From: a virus
Length of the DNA stretch: 38,384 nt
Virus record (IMG/VR): IMGVR_UViG_3300025284_000004
Location: 1 to 38,384 of that record
Strand: one strand, 5' to 3'
The notes under the pieces are model-generated. The model saw only the letters and a list, made by a program, of their open reading frames with translations. It was not told the origin of the DNA and searched no databases. The position numbers and the translations under genes are program-made. How positions within the stretch are numbered: the first letter of the stretch is position 1; each line of letters opens with the position of its first letter. Positions 2,901-11,682 of the stretch are shown piece after piece.

Positions 2901-3607
2901 CCACGAAACCGCAGGACCAGCGAGACATTGAGGCGCGCGAGGCGTTGAGCGCAGCGCCTACGGTTTCAGATCTACGCAGCTATGCACGCGCTATCCGCAT
3001 GATTGAAGACAATCAGGGCGCGGCTAACCGTGATTGCATCGAAGCAGCTTCAACAATGGAATGGGCCGCCCTGCAAATCGAAGGGTTGCAGCATCAATTG
3101 CACGAAGCGGTCATGTCCACTCATCGTCAAGCCATGTGCATTCATCAATGCGCGGCTGCGATTGGCTCTGATACGTCCGCGACAATTGATGGGCTGCCTC
3201 TAGCTGTAAAGCGCGTCGTAGAAGCCGCCCGCCCCGCCCCGGCAGCGTTGCCGAAACGGTATTTCCCGGACTTCGATGCTCGCGAAATGAAGGAATCGCA
3301 ATTCGGCGCTTATGTCCGCTACGAGGTGTCTTCAGAGTTCCCGTGCGTCAAGTCACCTTGTGACGGACATTGCAGGGACTGCTACAAGGCATCGCAGAAC
3401 GCCGCCCCGGAAGCGTTGGGCGCTGCGAAGGGGGAGTTGAGCGATGCGGAGATCGAGGAATTCGTAGCACCGCTGATTCAGGAACATCTGAGCGGCTATG
3501 CACGCCACTACGTCACTTACAACGATGGTCGATCCAATGACAGGGTTACGAGCGACATGCGAAACCTAACCCGCGCCATCCTCGCCAAATCCAAGGAGCA
3601 AGCATGA
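2897..3607 (+). CDS. mosaic early phage protein, 236 aa
   Basis: The ATG overlaps the previous stop (ATGA), which fixes the start. An N-terminal helical region with Ala-rich linkers (VEAARPAPAALPKRY) joins a Cys-rich patch (FPCVKSPCDGHCRDCYKA, four Cys at about residues 150-165, possibly metal-binding) and a C-terminal segment ending AILAKSKEQA. Such Ala/Pro-linked modules are typical of Ea22-like accessory proteins in phage left operons. No function can be given. Confidence 0.6.
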   Translation: MTTKPQDQRDIEAREALSAAPTVSDLRSYARAIRMIEDNQGAANRDCIEAASTMEWAALQIEGLQHQLHEAVMSTHRQAMCIHQCAAAIGSDTSATIDGLPLAVKRVVEAARPAPAALPKRYFPDFDAREMKESQFGAYVRYEVSSEFPCVKSPCDGHCRDCYKASQNAAPEALGAAKGELSDAEIEEFVAPLIQEHLSGYARHYVTYNDGRSNDRVTSDMRNLTRAILAKSKEQA

Positions 3608-4128
3608 GCCAAGACAACGCACGCCAAGCTGGGCTGACGGAACACCAATGGCGTGAAGCATTTGCAGCGAAAGCTATCAACGGCGCCATGCTGAATGTAC
3701 GCATGGCTGTAGAGATCGTGATGGAAACCCTCGCCGCCCATTCTGCGGATGCACGCCAAGCGGTGCTGACGGAGGAAAGACTTGGGGAACTGTGGCATGA
3801 AATCGGCCACGAAGAAAAGGGGAGAATTATCCGATATGCGCGCGCCGTAGAGCGTGAAGTCCTCGCCGCCCATTCTGCGGATGCCCGCAATGGGGAGGCG
3901 GGGTATTTCGTGCAGACATGGGATGGCCGCTGGATTCCCCAAGACAAAGCATTTCCAGTGATGGAGTTTCCTGCGGAAGAAGTTCCCGCTGAAGACGAAT
4001 GCCGCCTGACTAGTGAGCTATTGGACGAAGCTGTAGAGCAAGTGCGCGTTGCTTTGGTAAATGGCTGGGGTGCTTCTTATGCCGCAAACGTCCTACGGAA
4101 AGTTCTTAACTCTGGAGGTGTGAAATGA
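3604..4128 (+). CDS. mosaic early phage protein with LAAHSADAR repeats, 174 aa
   Basis: It overlaps the previous gene by 4 bp. Two short modules each end in the same peptide LAAHSADAR (around residues 43 and 87), encoded by near-identical DNA. The tail (SELLDEAVEQVRVALVNGWG) is helical. The next gene carries a third copy, so these genes seem to have been built by shuffling or duplication of cassettes. The function is unknown. Confidence 0.6.
   Translation: MSQDNARQAGLTEHQWREAFAAKAINGAMLNVRMAVEIVMETLAAHSADARQAVLTEERLGELWHEIGHEEKGRIIRYARAVEREVLAAHSADARNGEAGYFVQTWDGRWIPQDKAFPVMEFPAEEVPAEDECRLTSELLDEAVEQVRVALVNGWGASYAANVLRKVLNSGGVK
3729..3752 (+). repeat. 24-bp dispersed coding repeat, first of three copies
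   Basis: The word starting CCTCGCCGCCCATTCTGCGG is present at 3729-3752, 3861-3884 and 4397-4420. All copies are in the same frame and code for LAAHSADA. They fall at module borders of two neighbouring genes, where homologous recombination could exchange cassettes. Confidence 0.8.
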
Positions 4129-5066
4129 CTGACGGTTATCGAGCGGGATTCAAAGCTATCGTAGAGGCTTCTATTGCTGCTGCGCAAAACCGAGCTTCTG
4201 AGAAATACCGGCTTGAAGCGTGTCCGTTCTGCGGAGGGCAACCGGAAGACCCCGAGATTGAACAGGTTGAATACAACAGCTATGTCGCGAGCATCTGTTG
4301 CAATCACTGCGATACGACGTTTGCGCCGCAGTATATGGACTCATCAGAAGATGAAGCCATTCGTAAGGCTGTAGATGCCTGGAATCGCCGCGCCATCCTC
4401 GCCGCCCATTCTGCGGATGCCCGCAAGGGGGAGGGGGTGGCGCAAGGCTTCGTAATGGCGCCACTGGAAGCAACGGATGAAATGCTCGAAGCAACGCGCG
4501 GCCCCGGCATGTCTCCGGGAAGCTGGAACAACTACTCCAAGCGCCGGCATGCGCAACTTTACCGGCAAATGATTGGCGCCATAGCCGCACCAGCGCCGAA
4601 ACAAACGCCAAGCCCGGACTACATCCAAGGCTGGCAGGACTGTCTGAGTGTGCATCTGAATCCGGCACCCGCTGCGCAGGCGGACTATGAAGGACTGCGG
4701 CACAAGTTCGATGAGGCGCAACGCAACCGTTCGCCATTTCAGGCTGAAGTCGAGCGTATGACGCGCCAGCAATCCGCCACCCCGGCAGTGCCTGAACATG
4801 TTTGCAAATGCACGATGACGCAGAAATTGGTTGGCGATGGCTGCGTGGCATGCAACCCGGATCACCCTGACGCCAACCCGGCAGACGCGGCGAGCGAGGC
4901 GGACAAGAGGGATGCGGAGCGGTATCGGTGGCTGCGTGCATGTCGGCCGGAAGATTTGCCGCAATACAGCGTTTCGCGCGAACTGTACGAAGGCGATGAG
5001 CTTGATGCATTTGTTGACGCTGCCCTCCAGCGCGAGCGGCAACAGGGGGCGGATCGTGGCGAGTGA
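4125..5066 (+). CDS. mosaic protein with Lar-like zinc-ribbon N-terminus, 313 aa
   Basis: Residues ~25-90 resemble the Lar restriction-alleviation family: LEACPFCGGQPEDP, a second CCNHC pair, and the family ending AVDAWNRRA. Lar proteins of lambdoid prophages modulate host type I restriction. Further modules follow: LEATRGPGMSPGSW..., a GWQDCL segment, a second Cys cluster (CKCTMTQKLVGDGCVACNPD) and the phage module RDAERYRWLR. The start overlaps the previous stop. The restriction-alleviation role is inference from the N-terminal ribbon; the fused tail is unusual for Lar, which is normally a short protein. Confidence 0.6.
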   Translation: MTDGYRAGFKAIVEASIAAAQNRASEKYRLEACPFCGGQPEDPEIEQVEYNSYVASICCNHCDTTFAPQYMDSSEDEAIRKAVDAWNRRAILAAHSADARKGEGVAQGFVMAPLEATDEMLEATRGPGMSPGSWNNYSKRRHAQLYRQMIGAIAAPAPKQTPSPDYIQGWQDCLSVHLNPAPAAQADYEGLRHKFDEAQRNRSPFQAEVERMTRQQSATPAVPEHVCKCTMTQKLVGDGCVACNPDHPDANPADAASEADKRDAERYRWLRACRPEDLPQYSVSRELYEGDELDAFVDAALQRERQQGADRGE

Positions 5067-5397
5067 TAACGAAAAGTTCTACGACGACGAAATAGCACCC
5101 ATGCTGCGCGAGGTGTCGAAGAAGTGTGAGGCGCACGGAATGTCGCTTCTGGCCCTTGTCGAGTACGACAAAGGGGAGCGCGGGCGCACGACCCTGCTGC
5201 AACCAAGCGCGGGTCTCGAAATGATTATGGCGACGTTGTGCGCGAAAGCAGGCGCAAACATCGACTCGTACATGATCGGCCTGTCTCGGTACTGCCGGGA
5301 GAAGGGAATCGACTGTAGCCAAAGCATCGTCATGCGCCAGTTGCGCGGCGATAGCCTGAGTGCGCGCACCGAACCGGAGGGCGGGAACAATGGCTGA
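5056..5397 (+). CDS. conserved phage hypothetical protein, 113 aa
   Basis: The GTG start at 5056 has a strong GGGGGCGG just upstream and overlaps the previous gene by 11 bp. The protein begins MASDNEKFYDDEIAPMLREV, with LVEYDKGERGRTTLLQP in the middle. This pattern recurs in accessory operons of proteobacterial phages. It is soluble and mixed alpha/beta, of unknown function. Confidence 0.6.
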   Translation: MASDNEKFYDDEIAPMLREVSKKCEAHGMSLLALVEYDKGERGRTTLLQPSAGLEMIMATLCAKAGANIDSYMIGLSRYCREKGIDCSQSIVMRQLRGDSLSARTEPEGGNNG

Positions 5398-5905
5398 GAA
5401 ACTGGATTTGGACGAGCTGGAGAAGGCGTATGAGACGAAAGCCGATCATCCGGATTTTGCGCTGAACATGCTGAAGGCGATGCACTCATTTCCGGCTCTG
5501 ATCGCCCGCATCCGCGAACTCGAAACCGAACTGGAGCGCGCCAGCCAGCCTGGCAGCGAGCCGCCACTTGCATGGTTCGAAGCTGAAGAATCATGCCGCG
5601 GCGCTGATCTACGCAGCATCGTCAACGGAATGATGCATTCCACGCGATGGCATTGGCAGGCAGAACGCCCGCAGACTAACAACCCCGTGTGGCCGATCTA
5701 TGCAGGTAGCCAGCCTGGCAGCGGGGAGGCTACGCAAGACGCGTCGCGCTATCGCTGGCTTCGTGAAACAGCCATCAGGTGTCAAGCATACGTGCACGGC
5801 AAGCCGAACTGGCTTTTCGGCTTCGAGTTGCGAGGAACCACATTTGACGAAGCCATCGACGCAGCCCGCGCTTCGCTGGACGGGCGGAGGGAGGGGCATG
5901 AATGA
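5390..5905 (+). CDS. mosaic early phage protein with RYRWLR module, 171 aa
   Basis: It overlaps the previous gene by 8 bp. Residues 1-50 are helical (ending in a coiled coil, ALIARIRELETELERA). A middle module contains EPPLAWFEAEESCRGADLRS, and the C-terminus carries DASRYRWLRETAI, the same module type as in the preceding 313-residue gene. The phrase SQPGS occurs twice, at 5546 and 5708. Its stop lies inside the starts of the two overlapping ORFs that follow. Confidence 0.6.
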   Translation: MAEKLDLDELEKAYETKADHPDFALNMLKAMHSFPALIARIRELETELERASQPGSEPPLAWFEAEESCRGADLRSIVNGMMHSTRWHWQAERPQTNNPVWPIYAGSQPGSGEATQDASRYRWLRETAIRCQAYVHGKPNWLFGFELRGTTFDEAIDAARASLDGRREGHE

Positions 5906-6710
5906 GCTTCATCTTTTCGCGGGCGCTGGTGGAGGCATCCTTGCAGGTCAACTGCTCGGACGTCGATGCGTATGCGCCGTTGAGTTTGATCCCTACGCCC
6001 AAGCCGTCCTTGTCGCTAGGCAAAACGATGGCACCTTTCCTCCATTCCCGATTTGGAATGACGTTCGAACCTTTGACGGAAGACCTTGGCACGGAATTGC
6101 TGACGTCGTGGCTGGCGGGTTTCCGTGCCAGGACATCAGTGCAGCAGGAACCGGCGATGGCCTTGACGGCGAGCGAAGCGGACTCTGGACAGAAATGGCG
6201 CGCATCATTCGCGAAGTACGACCCCGCCGAGTCGAAGTGGAGAACTCCCCAATGCTCACTTCTCGGGGACTTTCCAGAGTTCTCGGAGACTTGGCCGAGA
6301 TGGGGTTCGATGCGGAATGGGGTGTCATATCTGCGGCCGACGTTGGCGCTCCCCACCTTCGGGAACGAATCTGGATTGTGGCCCACGCCAACGGTTTGCG
6401 GGAATTACAACAGGCCGGGAGCGAGTGCGAACAGCGGAATGGGGTTGGCTTCAGCAGTGAAGCTCTGGCCGACGCCGTGCGCGAGCGCGAGCAAGGGATC
6501 TTCGCCGGCAGCATTGGTTCGGAAGGACGGCAAGAGCCGATCGAACGATCGGATCGACCACGCAGTTATGGCATCAGACGGTGGCCAGTTGAACCCGGAG
6601 TGGGTCGAGTGGTTGATGGGATGGCCAATCGGGCACACCGCATTAAAGCCATTGGAAACGGCCAGGTATCAAGAGTGGCTGCAACAGCATGGCATCTTCT
6701 CGAACGCTGA
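5898..6710 (+). CDS. dcm: DNA (cytosine-5) methyltransferase
   Basis: The enzyme transfers a methyl group from SAM to cytosine C5 in DNA, probably to protect phage DNA from host restriction. In 270 residues the C5-MTase motifs are in order: motif I LHLFAGAGGG (4-13), the CAVEFDP strand (26-32), motif IV GGFPCQDIS with catalytic Cys77, motif VI VEVENSP (Glu115, Asn116), motif VIII APHLRERIW (151-159) and motif X AIGNGQV (251-257). The region between VIII and X, the target recognition region, is short. GGAGGGAGGGGC lies directly before the ATG. A second ORF covers almost its whole length in the +1 frame. Confidence 0.88.
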   Translation: MNELHLFAGAGGGILAGQLLGRRCVCAVEFDPYAQAVLVARQNDGTFPPFPIWNDVRTFDGRPWHGIADVVAGGFPCQDISAAGTGDGLDGERSGLWTEMARIIREVRPRRVEVENSPMLTSRGLSRVLGDLAEMGFDAEWGVISAADVGAPHLRERIWIVAHANGLRELQQAGSECEQRNGVGFSSEALADAVREREQGIFAGSIGSEGRQEPIERSDRPRSYGIRRWPVEPGVGRVVDGMANRAHRIKAIGNGQVSRVAATAWHLLER

Positions 6711-6717
6711 TGCCTAA
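5902..6717 (+). CDS. overlapping +1-frame ORF conserved with phage methyltransferases, 271 aa
   Basis: This ORF starts 4 nt after the methyltransferase ATG and stops 7 nt after its TGA, in the +1 frame. It is not a random shadow. Its protein has phrases I recognise from phage and prophage proteins found beside or in Dcm genes: SFAKYDPAESKWRTPQCSLL, FSETWPRWGSMRNG, SGLWPTPTV, LNPEWVEWLMGWPIG and LKPLET. The reading frame stays open for 271 codons. The ATG overlaps the stop of the upstream gene (ATGA), so it could be translated by coupling. The function is unknown; a partner or recognition subunit of the methyltransferase is a guess. Confidence 0.65.
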   Translation: MSFIFSRALVEASLQVNCSDVDAYAPLSLIPTPKPSLSLGKTMAPFLHSRFGMTFEPLTEDLGTELLTSWLAGFRARTSVQQEPAMALTASEADSGQKWRASFAKYDPAESKWRTPQCSLLGDFPEFSETWPRWGSMRNGVSYLRPTLALPTFGNESGLWPTPTVCGNYNRPGASANSGMGLASAVKLWPTPCASASKGSSPAALVRKDGKSRSNDRIDHAVMASDGGQLNPEWVEWLMGWPIGHTALKPLETARYQEWLQQHGIFSNADA

Positions 6718-6761
6718 CCGCTCTACCGCCGTTTATTCGGCGCTGATAAATGGGGAATGGG

Positions 6762-7091
6762 ATGAACGATAGAGAGATGCTGGTGCTGGCGGCGCGGGCG
6801 GCTGGTCAGGAGCGCTCATTTGCCGGCGATCCTTGGAGCAGTGCGCGCGGGCGATTGTGGGATCCGCTGAATGACGACGGCGATGCGCTGCGGCTGGCTG
6901 TGAAGCTGGGCCTCAACGTTGATGTGTATCGGCAGGAGCCACTTCGGGAGACGCCGTGCGTTGAAGTCCGTGGTTACGTGTACCGCCGAAGCCTTGCCAT
7001 CGAACAAGCCGCAGATAACGGCGCATCGCTTGAGGCCGCCACCCGCCGCGCCATCGTCCGCGCAGCCGCAGCCATCGGAGAGAAAACGTGA
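6762..7091 (+). CDS. hypothetical early protein, 109 aa
   Basis: ATG 6762 is preferred over 6750 because GGGGAATGGG lies just before it. The protein resembles a DUF2591-type phage protein: an N-terminal helix (MLVLAARAAGQ), the middle WDPLNDDGDALRLAVKLGLN, and a C-terminal EAATRRAIVRAAAAIG helix. In lambdoid phages similar proteins lie in the left operon and have no assigned function. The stop overlaps the next start. Confidence 0.65.
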   Translation: MNDREMLVLAARAAGQERSFAGDPWSSARGRLWDPLNDDGDALRLAVKLGLNVDVYRQEPLRETPCVEVRGYVYRRSLAIEQAADNGASLEAATRRAIVRAAAAIGEKT

Positions 7092-7619: not shown

Positions 7620-8705
7620 ATGGCCGCCAGACCTCGCATCCGCAAGCGCGCACACTACCCGCCAAATCTCCATGAGCCGAGGCCAGGATATTTCACGTGG
7701 CGCGATCCGCGCGACGGCAAGACCCACATCATCGGCCGGGTGACGGCAGCCGAAGCCATCCACGAGGCGCAACAGGCGAATCTCGTGGCAGAGCGCGGGA
7801 TAGCCCGCAAGTCGTTGGCAGAGCGGCTAGAATCGGGCCGCGAGACGGTGTCCGACCTGCTCGACAAGATGCCGACCGAGGGTCTGAAGGCCAACACGCT
7901 GAAGGCGCGGGCAGACTACGATCGAACGATCAAGGCAGAAATTGGCAGCATCCTATGCGAGGACCTGACCACCAAGCACATCGCCGATATGCTCGAAGGT
8001 ATCAAGGCTCGCGGGAAGAACCGTTGGGCTCAGGCCATCCGCAGCCGAATCTTCGCCGCATGCACAAAAGGCGTAGCGCTCGGCTGGATGCAGACCAACC
8101 CTGCCGCCGTGACCGAGAAGGTCAAAGTGAAGGTCAAGCGCCAGCGGCTGTCGATGGAGCAGTTCCAGAAGATCCTGGACAAGGCGCCCGAGGTAGCCGC
8201 CTGGCTGCCGAACGCCATGCTTCTGGCACTAATCACCGGGCAGGACCGTTCGACAATCGCTGGCCTGCAGCGGTCGAATGTGGTCGGTGATTATCTGGTG
8301 CTGCAGCGATCGAAGACCGACGTTGTGATAGAGATCCCTTTGGCCCTGCGGATGGATGCCATTGGCCTGTCGCTGGCCGATGTGATCGCCAAGTGCAAGA
8401 CGACCGGCGTAGTCAGCAAGCACCTGATCCACCATATTCGCCCATACACCGGCGCCCCGAGCGGGGCTCCAGTCGACCTCGACACCATTTCGAAGTCATT
8501 CGCCAAGGCTCGGGTGCTGGCAGGGCTGGTTGGGGATACCGCCCCCACCTTTCACGAGCTACGGAGCCTGGCGAAGCGGACCTACATGGAACAAACCGGG
8601 GTCGATACTAAAGCCCTCTTAGGGCATCAAAGTGATCAAACTGCAGATATCTACGCCAATCCCCGAGGGATTGCACCAATTCGAGTGAAGGTGGCCCATG
8701 GCTAA
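7620..8705 (+). CDS. int: tyrosine integrase (lambda type)
   Basis: This is the site-specific recombinase for phage integration and excision. The 361-residue protein has an N-terminal arm-type DNA-binding region (residues 1-55, basic, GYFTWRDPRDGKTHIIGRV), a core-binding helical domain (about 75-160) and a catalytic domain (175-361). Catalytic residues seen are Arg210 (TGQDRSTIAGL), Lys232, His312 and Arg315 (HELRS), His336 (LLGHQ) and Tyr345 (DIYANP). It starts 3 bp after xis and overlaps the HNH gene by 8 bp. The arm domain implies a lambda-like attP with arm sites. Confidence 0.95.
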   Translation: MAARPRIRKRAHYPPNLHEPRPGYFTWRDPRDGKTHIIGRVTAAEAIHEAQQANLVAERGIARKSLAERLESGRETVSDLLDKMPTEGLKANTLKARADYDRTIKAEIGSILCEDLTTKHIADMLEGIKARGKNRWAQAIRSRIFAACTKGVALGWMQTNPAAVTEKVKVKVKRQRLSMEQFQKILDKAPEVAAWLPNAMLLALITGQDRSTIAGLQRSNVVGDYLVLQRSKTDVVIEIPLALRMDAIGLSLADVIAKCKTTGVVSKHLIHHIRPYTGAPSGAPVDLDTISKSFAKARVLAGLVGDTAPTFHELRSLAKRTYMEQTGVDTKALLGHQSDQTADIYANPRGIAPIRVKVAHG

Positions 8706-9397: not shown

Positions 9398-9601
9398 TCA
9401 ATCCACCCCCATTTCCCGCTGCCAGTCGTCGCACCCTTTCAGCGGACACGGATTCCCAAGTTGGCAGTCCAGACGCATCCTGGGGTGGGGATATTCCTGC
9501 GCCATAGTGATCTTGAGGCGCGAACAGGTACGGCATGCCCATTCCTTGGAGATCACATAGGAAGGCATGGGCGGGGCTGGAGGTTGGAAGCCGGTCGACA
9601 T
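9398..9601 (-). CDS. small Cys-rich protein under a LexA-type box, 67 aa
   Basis: This ORF reads against int and the acyltransferase. The protein has two Cys groups (WACRTCSRLK at about 21-30, LDCQLGNPCPLKGCDDW at about 44-60), suggesting a small zinc-binding protein. A perfect CTGT-N8-ACAG palindrome begins 8 bp before its ATG, and the -10-like TATACA in that box would place the RNA start one or two bases before the ATG. The transcript may thus be leaderless; no ribosome site is seen. An SOS-induced antirepressor or host-modifying role (compare Tum of phage 186) is speculation. Confidence 0.5.
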   Translation of the reverse strand: MSTGFQPPAPPMPSYVISKEWACRTCSRLKITMAQEYPHPRMRLDCQLGNPCPLKGCDDWQREMGVD

Positions 9602-9608
9602 CGGAGCA

Positions 9609-9624
9609 CTGTATATCTGAACAG
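9609..9624 (-). promoter_or_regulatory. LexA (SOS) box
   Basis: The 16-bp word CTGTATATCTGAACAG fits the gamma/betaproteobacterial LexA consensus CTGT-N8-ACAG. It ends 8 bp from the start of the minus-strand Cys-rich gene and overlaps its likely -10 (TATACA at 9615-9610). LexA binding here would block that promoter until DNA damage. Confidence 0.6.
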
Positions 9625-9690
9625 TTGTCCATTCAACTTAACGGCGCCCTGTGGCATCATCGCGGACGTTTCAAAATTGACACGATTCGG

Positions 9691-11682
9691 ATGAAATACG
9701 CCAATCCCACCACAATTGCTCATCCCCCATACCGCGACGATATTGATGGCCTGCGCGCCGTGGCAGTGCTGGTCGTGGTGGCATTCCATGCTTTCCCGGA
9801 CTGGTTGCCGGGCGGGTTCGTCGGCGTCGACATCTTCTTCGTCATCTCGGGCTTCCTGATCTCCACCATCCTGTTCAAGGGCCTGGAGCAGGGTTCGTTC
9901 TCGTTTGGCGACTTCTACGCGCGCCGCGTGCGCCGGATCTTCCCGGCTCTGGTCATCGTGCTGGGCGCCTGCCTAGCGTTTGGCTGGGGCATCCTGCTGA
10001 CAGACGAATACACGTCGCTGGGTGACAGCGTGCTGGGCGGAGCATCGTTCCTTGCCAACTTCCAGCTGTGGCAGCAGGCCGGTTACTTCGACACCAAAGC
10101 CGAACTAAAGCCATTGCTGCATCTCTGGTCGCTGGGGATCGAGGAACAGTTCTACATGGTATGGCCGCTCCTACTCTGGCTGGGGTATCGACTGCGCGCC
10201 AATCTTCTTATGGTGACGCTTTTGGTGTTGGGCGCCTCGTTTTTCCTGAACATCGACACCGTCCATCTTGACCGGACGCGGACCTTCTATCTGCCGGATA
10301 CACGTTTCTGGGAACTGCTGTCTGGCAGCCTGCTGGCGTACGTGACGCTGCACCATTGGCGCCTGAAGATGTCGCGCGCGCTGTCCGAGCTGCTGTCGGT
10401 CGCCGGTATCGGCCTGTTGTTCGCTGCCGTGGCGCTTGTGCGCGCCGAAGACTATTTCCCCGGCTGGTGGGCGCTGCTGCCTATCGGCGGCGCGGCGCTG
10501 TCGATTGCGGCCGGTCCCGACGCATGGCTAAATCGCTACGTCCTGGGCAGCTTGCCAATGCGCAGAATCGGTCTGATCAGCTTCCAGCTGTATCTGTGGC
10601 ACTGGCCTTTGCTGGTTTTCGCCCGTCTGGTCTATGGCGACACGCCCTCAGATGCTGTCCGCGCCGGTGCCGTGGCGCTGGCCTTTGTTCTCGCCTGGCT
10701 GACGGCACGAATAGAGAAGCCACTTCGCTTCGGCGCTTTCCCGCGCATGAAGGTCGCTCTGCTTTGCACCGCCATGGTCGCGGTGGCGGGCACTGGCTAT
10801 CTAATCTCCGAACAGCGCATCGTGCCCTACTCCAAATCGGCCGGACTGGAGAAGATCATGGCGGCTGCCGGCGAGTGGGATTTCCCCAGCAAGGAAATGA
10901 AACAGGTGGAGTTCCAGAAGAAGGTGCTGTTCGTGAGCGATAGCGGCAGTCCGGAGACCACGCTATTCCTTGGCGACAGCAACATGGAACAGTACGGGCC
11001 GCGGATCAACCAGCTTGTCAGCCAGCAATCCGGGAAGGTGAATACGGCGGTGTTTGCCACGGCGCCAGGTTGTCCACCGATTCCGAATGTAACGGATAAG
11101 GACCACCCGCAATGCGGACATTCTCTGAATACTTCGCTGGAGTACGCTGCAAGACCAGAGGTCACCACGGTGGTGATCGGCGCGCTGTGGGACGTCTACT
11201 ACGTGATGGGCAACTTCTACCAGTATGAGACTGGTGGAAAGCCCGAACGACTGGCGCCGAATTCTCTCGGAACGGCACAATCGATGGACTCGCTGGCGGC
11301 GATGATCGAAGGGCTGGTGAAGTCAGGAAAGAAGGTATATCTAGTCCTGACGATCCCGAATGGGCAGAAGGTCGACCCGAAGTTCATGGTGAAGCGTTCG
11401 CTCTACCCTATCGGCTTCAATGTTGATCGCGACGGCCTGCCAGTCGGCTACTACCTGCACTCCTGGTACAACCAGGTGGGAAATCTGCGGGCCCAACTGA
11501 TCGACGCCGGGCGCCGCGGTGGCGCCACGATCATCGACCCGTTGGAACACCTGTGCGACAAGAAGATATGTCCGTCAGTCACAGCAAACGGCGAACCGAT
11601 CTATAAGGACTCTGGCCATCTGCGTCCAAGCTTCGTACGCGACCACGTGCTTTACTTGGACGAGACGCTCGACGCCGGCTGA
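9691..11682 (+). CDS. O-acyltransferase (acyltransferase 3 family) with SGNH domain
   Basis: This 663-residue membrane enzyme is of the OafA/YrhL type and probably acetylates a cell-surface polysaccharide, such as O-antigen. About ten membrane segments fill residues 1-370, with the family motif Arg22-x10-His33 followed by GGFVGVDIFFVISGFLIS. The periplasmic C-terminal half is an SGNH hydrolase-like domain with FLGDSNMEQ (about 428) and DSGHLRPS (His about 643). Phages encode such enzymes for lysogenic conversion and to block superinfection. ATG 9691 is chosen because homology begins at DDIDGLRAVAV; the ORF is open upstream. It is convergent with the lysis genes and overlaps Rz1 by 31 bp. Confidence 0.88.
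   Translation: MKYANPTTIAHPPYRDDIDGLRAVAVLVVVAFHAFPDWLPGGFVGVDIFFVISGFLISTILFKGLEQGSFSFGDFYARRVRRIFPALVIVLGACLAFGWGILLTDEYTSLGDSVLGGASFLANFQLWQQAGYFDTKAELKPLLHLWSLGIEEQFYMVWPLLLWLGYRLRANLLMVTLLVLGASFFLNIDTVHLDRTRTFYLPDTRFWELLSGSLLAYVTLHHWRLKMSRALSELLSVAGIGLLFAAVALVRAEDYFPGWWALLPIGGAALSIAAGPDAWLNRYVLGSLPMRRIGLISFQLYLWHWPLLVFARLVYGDTPSDAVRAGAVALAFVLAWLTARIEKPLRFGAFPRMKVALLCTAMVAVAGTGYLISEQRIVPYSKSAGLEKIMAAAGEWDFPSKEMKQVEFQKKVLFVSDSGSPETTLFLGDSNMEQYGPRINQLVSQQSGKVNTAVFATAPGCPPIPNVTDKDHPQCGHSLNTSLEYAARPEVTTVVIGALWDVYYVMGNFYQYETGGKPERLAPNSLGTAQSMDSLAAMIEGLVKSGKKVYLVLTIPNGQKVDPKFMVKRSLYPIGFNVDRDGLPVGYYLHSWYNQVGNLRAQLIDAGRRGGATIIDPLEHLCDKKICPSVTANGEPIYKDSGHLRPSFVRDHVLYLDETLDAG

Follow-up and report, generated by a model that had tools for sequence, protein, structure and literature searches.

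Two overlapping frames in a viral cytosine methyltransferase gene: dual coding under selection and a proposed two-subunit enzyme

Do two reading frames that share about 815 bases of one viral genome both encode proteins, and if so, what does the second contribute to the enzyme whose gene it occupies? The question is raised by the window analysed here, the whole of a virus record of 38,384 bases that carries an integrase at 7620-8705. Within it a C5-cytosine methyltransferase gene (M; 5898-6710, 270 aa) is overlapped by an open reading frame (X; 5902-6717, 271 aa) lying in the +1 frame relative to M; these and all other features of the locus given below are on the plus strand. Both frames were located where the original prediction, made from the sequence alone, had placed them, with starts offset by 4 nt and ends by 7 nt. 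Its further claim that the stop of the upstream gene lies within the same start cluster also holds, as this upstream ORF (5390..5905; 172 aa counted from its ATG, with an alternative GTG start possible at 5360) ends in a TGA at 5903-5905 that overlaps the ATG of X (5902-5904). Because a +1-frame TGA at 5899-5901 directly adjoins the ATG of X on its 5' side, X must initiate independently. A single strong Shine-Dalgarno-like run, GGAGGGAGGGG (5886..5896), read from the sequence and with its use inferred, stands 5' of both ATGs (that of M at 5898) and is common to the two starts. No sigma-70-type promoter was found around the junction, and the upstream ORF has no Pfam family and only a weak PHROG match. 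A short phage protein, conserved but without a known function, is encoded just 3' of M and X (6750-7091; phrog_5086, 2.5e-26).

The openness of the X frame was compared with what the codons of M would give by chance. When the synonymous codons of M are shuffled, 4.3 stops are expected across the span of X in the window, where none is observed, and 0 of 1000 shuffles were free of stops. Among 71 unique relatives, 4.65 stops are expected in the X frame, and in 70 of these X spans more than 85% of the length of M; the outcome that was to have refuted the original prediction, homologues whose +1 frame freely admits stop codons, was looked for and did not materialize. The X protein is also more conserved than selection on M alone would make it, with an identity of 0.467 against the 0.279 expected under synonymous resampling with the M protein held fixed (56 homologue pairs with M identity below 72%; median z 8.2, minimum 2.5). 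The start of X leaves its own mark on the codons of M: in unique relatives whose M begins with M-N, the asparagine codon is AAT, which creates the ATG of X, in 60 of 60 cases, and never AAC, which would abolish it, whereas elsewhere in the genes of those relatives AAT accounts for only 191 of 513 asparagine codons and AAC is the commoner (322). By tblastn, almost all of 146 loci carry both M and X, with X identity similar to that of M, and homologues of X were found in 80 loci at 40–70% identity, most of them full-length.

In 18 independent close pairs, the window among them, substitution counts that allow for the overlap put omega under 1 in M and X alike. We define omega_X as SN/SS and omega_M as NS/SS, and rely on SN/SS because the alternative, NN/NS, errs on the low side (0.47 in controls); the +1 frame of neighbouring ordinary genes gives an SN/SS omega of 1.10. 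The constraint is divided by region. Over motifs I-V (codons 3–95) omega_M is 0.021 and X is only weakly constrained (omega_X 0.30), and over motifs VI-VIII the values are 0.10 and 0.23 respectively. From motif VIII to motif X the order is reversed, with omega_X at 0.027 (CI 0.005–0.098) and omega_M at 0.69 (CI 0.39–1.8), and in the final 48 codons the two are alike (omega_X 0.16, omega_M 0.18). For the exchange of constraint from the first region to the third, a Fisher test on pooled substitutions gives p 1e-97. A second set of 38 further close pairs, drawn mostly from other loci and including bacterial genomes, shows the same pattern, with omega_X 0.21 and omega_M 1.1 past motif VIII; in this wider family constraint on residues 1–95 of X is not clear (0.59, CI 0.35–1.26). 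On these regional values the M frame is near neutral where the recognition domain of a C5-methyltransferase would be expected, and X is strongly conserved there. M and X are both under purifying selection, which meets the criterion for same-strand overlapping genes that such selection act in both frames across the overlap. That both frames are selected at the protein level had been surmised from phrases resembling those of other phage proteins, and the codon shuffles, the identity null, the omegas with their ordinary-gene controls and the second set of pairs all bear this out. In prokaryotes, claims of long dual coding on one strand are commonly contested; here such coding can be read straight from the substitution patterns, at hundreds of loci, and each frame holds a region that the other lets drift.

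What the second frame may supply is suggested by what M lacks. Motif I (LHLFAGAGGG; 5907..5936), motif IV with the catalytic PCQ (GGFPCQDIS; 6114..6140), motif VI with its EN (VEVENSPML; 6231..6257) and motif VIII (HLRERIWIVAHA; 6354..6389, from the same DNA as which the X frame reads LWPTPT) all lie within the single M chain, which ends with motif X and a C-terminal helix (HRIKAIGNGQVSRVAATAWHLL; 6636..6701) that are constrained in M. Between motifs VIII and X is a spacer (6390..6563) in which the M frame is near neutral (omega ~0.7–0.9) and the X frame strongly constrained. The pattern of motif IX was not found in the M frame, and M is without any conserved recognition domain, so that it does not meet the criterion of a monomeric C5-methyltransferase, in which the recognition domain and motif IX stand in the same chain. 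The original prediction had credited M with all C5-methyltransferase motifs; motifs I, IV, VI, VIII and X are indeed present, motif IX is not, and this error about a complete set is the key to the arrangement. M matches PF00145 with 2.7e-32 only over profile positions 3–167 of 324, aligns to M.HhaI only through residues 4–168 (M.HhaI 15–176), and matches phrog_363 with 6.6e-69, a family labelled DNA methyltransferase. The same truncation recurs in 26 genomes whose dual-coded methyltransferases match PF00145 only to about position 160–181, whereas the ordinary enzymes with the best scores in those genomes mostly cover positions 1–323.

The missing parts can be traced in X by way of relatives in which the whole enzyme occupies one frame. 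Three segments of X are distinguished here: a conserved block, GQKWRASFAKYDPAESKW..TWPRWGSMRNG (6187..6321); a proposed target-recognition region with WPTP repeats (6376..6579), which is constrained and homologous to the PTP-repeat region of the one-frame enzymes; and motif IX (GGQLNPEWVEWLMGWPIGHT; 6580..6639). The one-frame relatives run from motifs I-VIII through PTP repeats to motif IX and then motif X. X matches phrog_1008 (6.8e-28; also labelled DNA methyltransferase), and this same family matches the C-terminal part of three one-frame enzymes, L162 (1.3e-49), L166 (1.1e-34) and L185 (1.2e-18). A profile of the C-terminal part of the one-frame relatives, which also took in X of the Mycobacterium phage Catdawg, is matched to X by HHalign at 99% and 2.5e-18, and the IX-X segment of the one-frame relatives is matched to that of classical methyltransferases with an E of 8.2e-5. 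Set directly against classical methyltransferases, the X profile places motif IX correctly, without reaching significance (E 0.046). One PADLOC model for single-chain orphan methyltransferases (oMTase) is divided between the two proteins, M matching columns 5–159 (3.2e-21) and X residues 182–241 matching columns 292–351 (E 0.0024). In Catdawg itself, M ends just past motif VIII, without spacer and tail, and X has both motif IX and motif X. A PDB sequence search with X returned no relative, and X belongs to no Pfam family. Its AlphaFold model, built on an 85-sequence alignment, is poor (pLDDT 59) and was left out of the fold search.

We therefore propose, with a probability of roughly 0.87, that M and X are the two subunits of one C5-cytosine methyltransferase, M carrying motifs I-VIII and X, and the X protein carrying the recognition region and motif IX, the two being encoded in nearly fully overlapping frames. 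What has been observed in its support is dual coding under selection, the regional division of that selection, the homology of X to the recognition and motif IX part of one-frame enzymes, and the conservation of the layout. The original prediction had floated a partner or recognition subunit encoded inside the enzyme gene, and that idea is now well supported by the homology of X and by the near-neutral M frame over the same DNA; the expression and activity of X remain inferences. In the proposed mechanism M would supply the pocket for AdoMet and the catalytic loop (motifs I-VIII) together with the C-terminal motif X, the sequence of its spacer hardly mattering, and X, started on its own 4 nt further 3', would bring the target-recognition region and the motif IX that M is missing. 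The adjacent starts would favour near-equal synthesis of the two, which probably assemble into one enzyme methylating a specific site, and this methylation probably protects phage or prophage DNA against restriction. In the absence of expression, binding or methylation data, the translation of X, the formation of the complex, methylation, the target site and the biological role are all inferred.

Other readings of the locus must be weighed against this one. It could be held that X is not a gene, its frame being kept open by GC content and the codon use of M and its conserved phrases merely mirroring the motifs of M. Some phrases of X do share their DNA with M motifs (WPTPT with motif VIII), and the conserved M protein by itself would yield an X identity of 28%; yet the absence of stops where 4.3 are expected, the observed identity of 0.467 against 0.279, the AAT codon in 60 of 60 relatives, and an omega_X of 0.03 where M drifts, set beside about 1.1 for the +1 frame of ordinary genes by the same estimator, leave this reading with hardly any standing. 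Somewhat more room, though still little, is left for X as a real and selected protein that is no subunit of the methyltransferase, for instance an anti-restriction or regulatory protein: there are no activity data, X is without a Pfam family, and a neighbouring ORF (4125-5066) carries a Lar-like restriction-alleviation domain. We regard this as unlikely in view of the homology of X to the C-terminal recognition and motif IX part of one-frame enzymes, the lack of motif IX in M, the neutrality of the M frame exactly where X is constrained, and the X of Catdawg ending in motif X.

It is also conceivable that ribosomal frameshifting fuses the N-terminal half of M to the C-terminal half of X in a single chain, as the existence of rare one-frame versions (L162, L163, L166, L185) might suggest, and a few relatives do have runs of 8–11 G past motif IV at which a slip would swap the frames. 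The window has no such run, however, the ATG of X is conserved (again the AAT of 60 in 60) with a +1-frame TGA directly before it, and a single chain would require two shifts, motif X being read in the M frame again; we consider a frameshifted fusion very improbable. Such runs of 8–11 G after motif IV occur in 4 of 83 genes of the near family. Runs of 9–10 G right after motif IV, in L165 and L167 (~2437-2446) and in L403 (~3246-3254), coincide with the point at which the M and X halves switch frame, and these switches could be phase variation or an error of sequencing or assembly.

A C5-methyltransferase of two polypeptides is of a kind already known. The small subunit of M.EcoHK31I is encoded in another frame inside the gene of its large subunit, both subunits being required in vitro, and M.EaeI is a two-polypeptide C5-methyltransferase akin to M.EcoHK31I (YGGCCR). 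X likewise lies in another frame within the M gene. In M.EcoHK31I the large subunit holds motifs I-VIII and X, the small subunit holds only motif IX, and the predicted recognition domain has been placed in the large subunit; M.AquI is split after motif VIII, its second polypeptide comprising the recognition region, motif IX and motif X (PMC3404938). The window resembles M.EcoHK31I in that M has motifs I-VIII and X without IX, and in that motif IX falls to the second polypeptide, at the C-terminus of X, as judged from the one-frame relatives and the divided PADLOC oMTase match. Unlike in M.EcoHK31I, the X frame spans the whole gene, and selection assigns to X both motif IX and recognition. With M.AquI the window shares the separation of the catalytic motifs I-VIII from a second polypeptide with recognition and motif IX, but its motif X is in M and not in the second polypeptide; relatives of the Catdawg type, with motif X in the second polypeptide (Catdawg gp5), are closer to M.AquI. 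In one known case of an overlapping frame within phage DNA methylase genes, that frame belongs to a mobile endonuclease insert and is a third one, whereas X is no insert and extends along the methylase gene proper. The labels of phrog_363 (M) and phrog_1008 (X) are silent on overlapping frames and on two halves of an enzyme, and the open-access papers searched contained no account treating this layout as a general class, subscription papers being outside the search. What is new here is the near-complete overlap, the assignment of both recognition and motif IX to the second frame, and evidence for this layout as the norm throughout a large family.

The extent of that family was surveyed in 327 loci with profiles of motifs I-VIII of M and of the C-terminal part of X. 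In 317 of these, X overlaps M on one strand and in the +1 frame; in none of the 327 was it found in the +2 frame or apart from M. The other ten comprise the four loci with M and X in one ORF (L162, L163, L166, L185), two frame-switched copies of a single sequence (L165, L167), and four that match one profile only, at least two of which are cut by contig ends. Among 95 further loci the +1-frame overlap is found in 91, the exceptions being one tandem (L400), one frameshifted locus (L403), one with the same one-frame sequence as L185 (L328) and one fragment. The loci are not fully independent, and some contigs were fetched twice. The dual-coded layout occurs across many bacterial phyla, among others in Pseudomonas, Acinetobacter, Halomonas, Spirochaetia, Planctomycetota and Verrucomicrobia hosts, in phages of Lacticaseibacillus, Paenibacillus and Mycobacterium, and on an archaeal plasmid of Methanomethylovorans. 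Many phage records annotate one frame only, those of K1ind2 and Leyra annotating both. It is probable, in our judgement, that dual coding is the rule in a large, old and widespread class of C5-methyltransferases from phages and bacteria, in which catalysis occupies one frame and recognition the second along almost the entire gene, with a neutral spacer in the catalytic protein and an annotation that usually reports a single protein. Such a class would explain the many phage methyltransferases that apparently have neither recognition domain nor motif IX, and recoding these as single ORFs for expression would destroy the partner subunit. The arrangement also offers a system in which to ask how specificity might change in one frame without harm to catalysis in the other.

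Several individual loci deserve mention. In a Pseudodesulfovibrio MAG, two dual-coded M/X genes stand in tandem (L400, 1826-3730). In L185 (2128-3330; the L328 sequence is the same) the one-frame methyltransferase has both motif IX and the PTP repeats in frame 0, yet the conserved block from the N-terminal part of X persists in its +1 frame (48.6 bits), which is unexplained. In the predicted structure of this enzyme (alignment A4) the recognition region is also poorly modelled, and its match to M.HhaI (Z 26.5 over 234 residues) mainly reflects the catalytic part; alignments A2 and A3, which combined the one-frame relative with fragments of X, were dropped, the fragment rows being apparently set against the N-terminal half. 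Elsewhere in the window, the Lar-like domain of the ORF at 4125-5066 is N-terminal (PF14354, 5.7e-8) and lies about 0.8 kb upstream of the methyltransferase, and an acyltransferase-3/SGNH protein at 9535-11682, like phage O-antigen acetylases (phrog_6705, 9.6e-151), is likely the product of a serotype-conversion gene.
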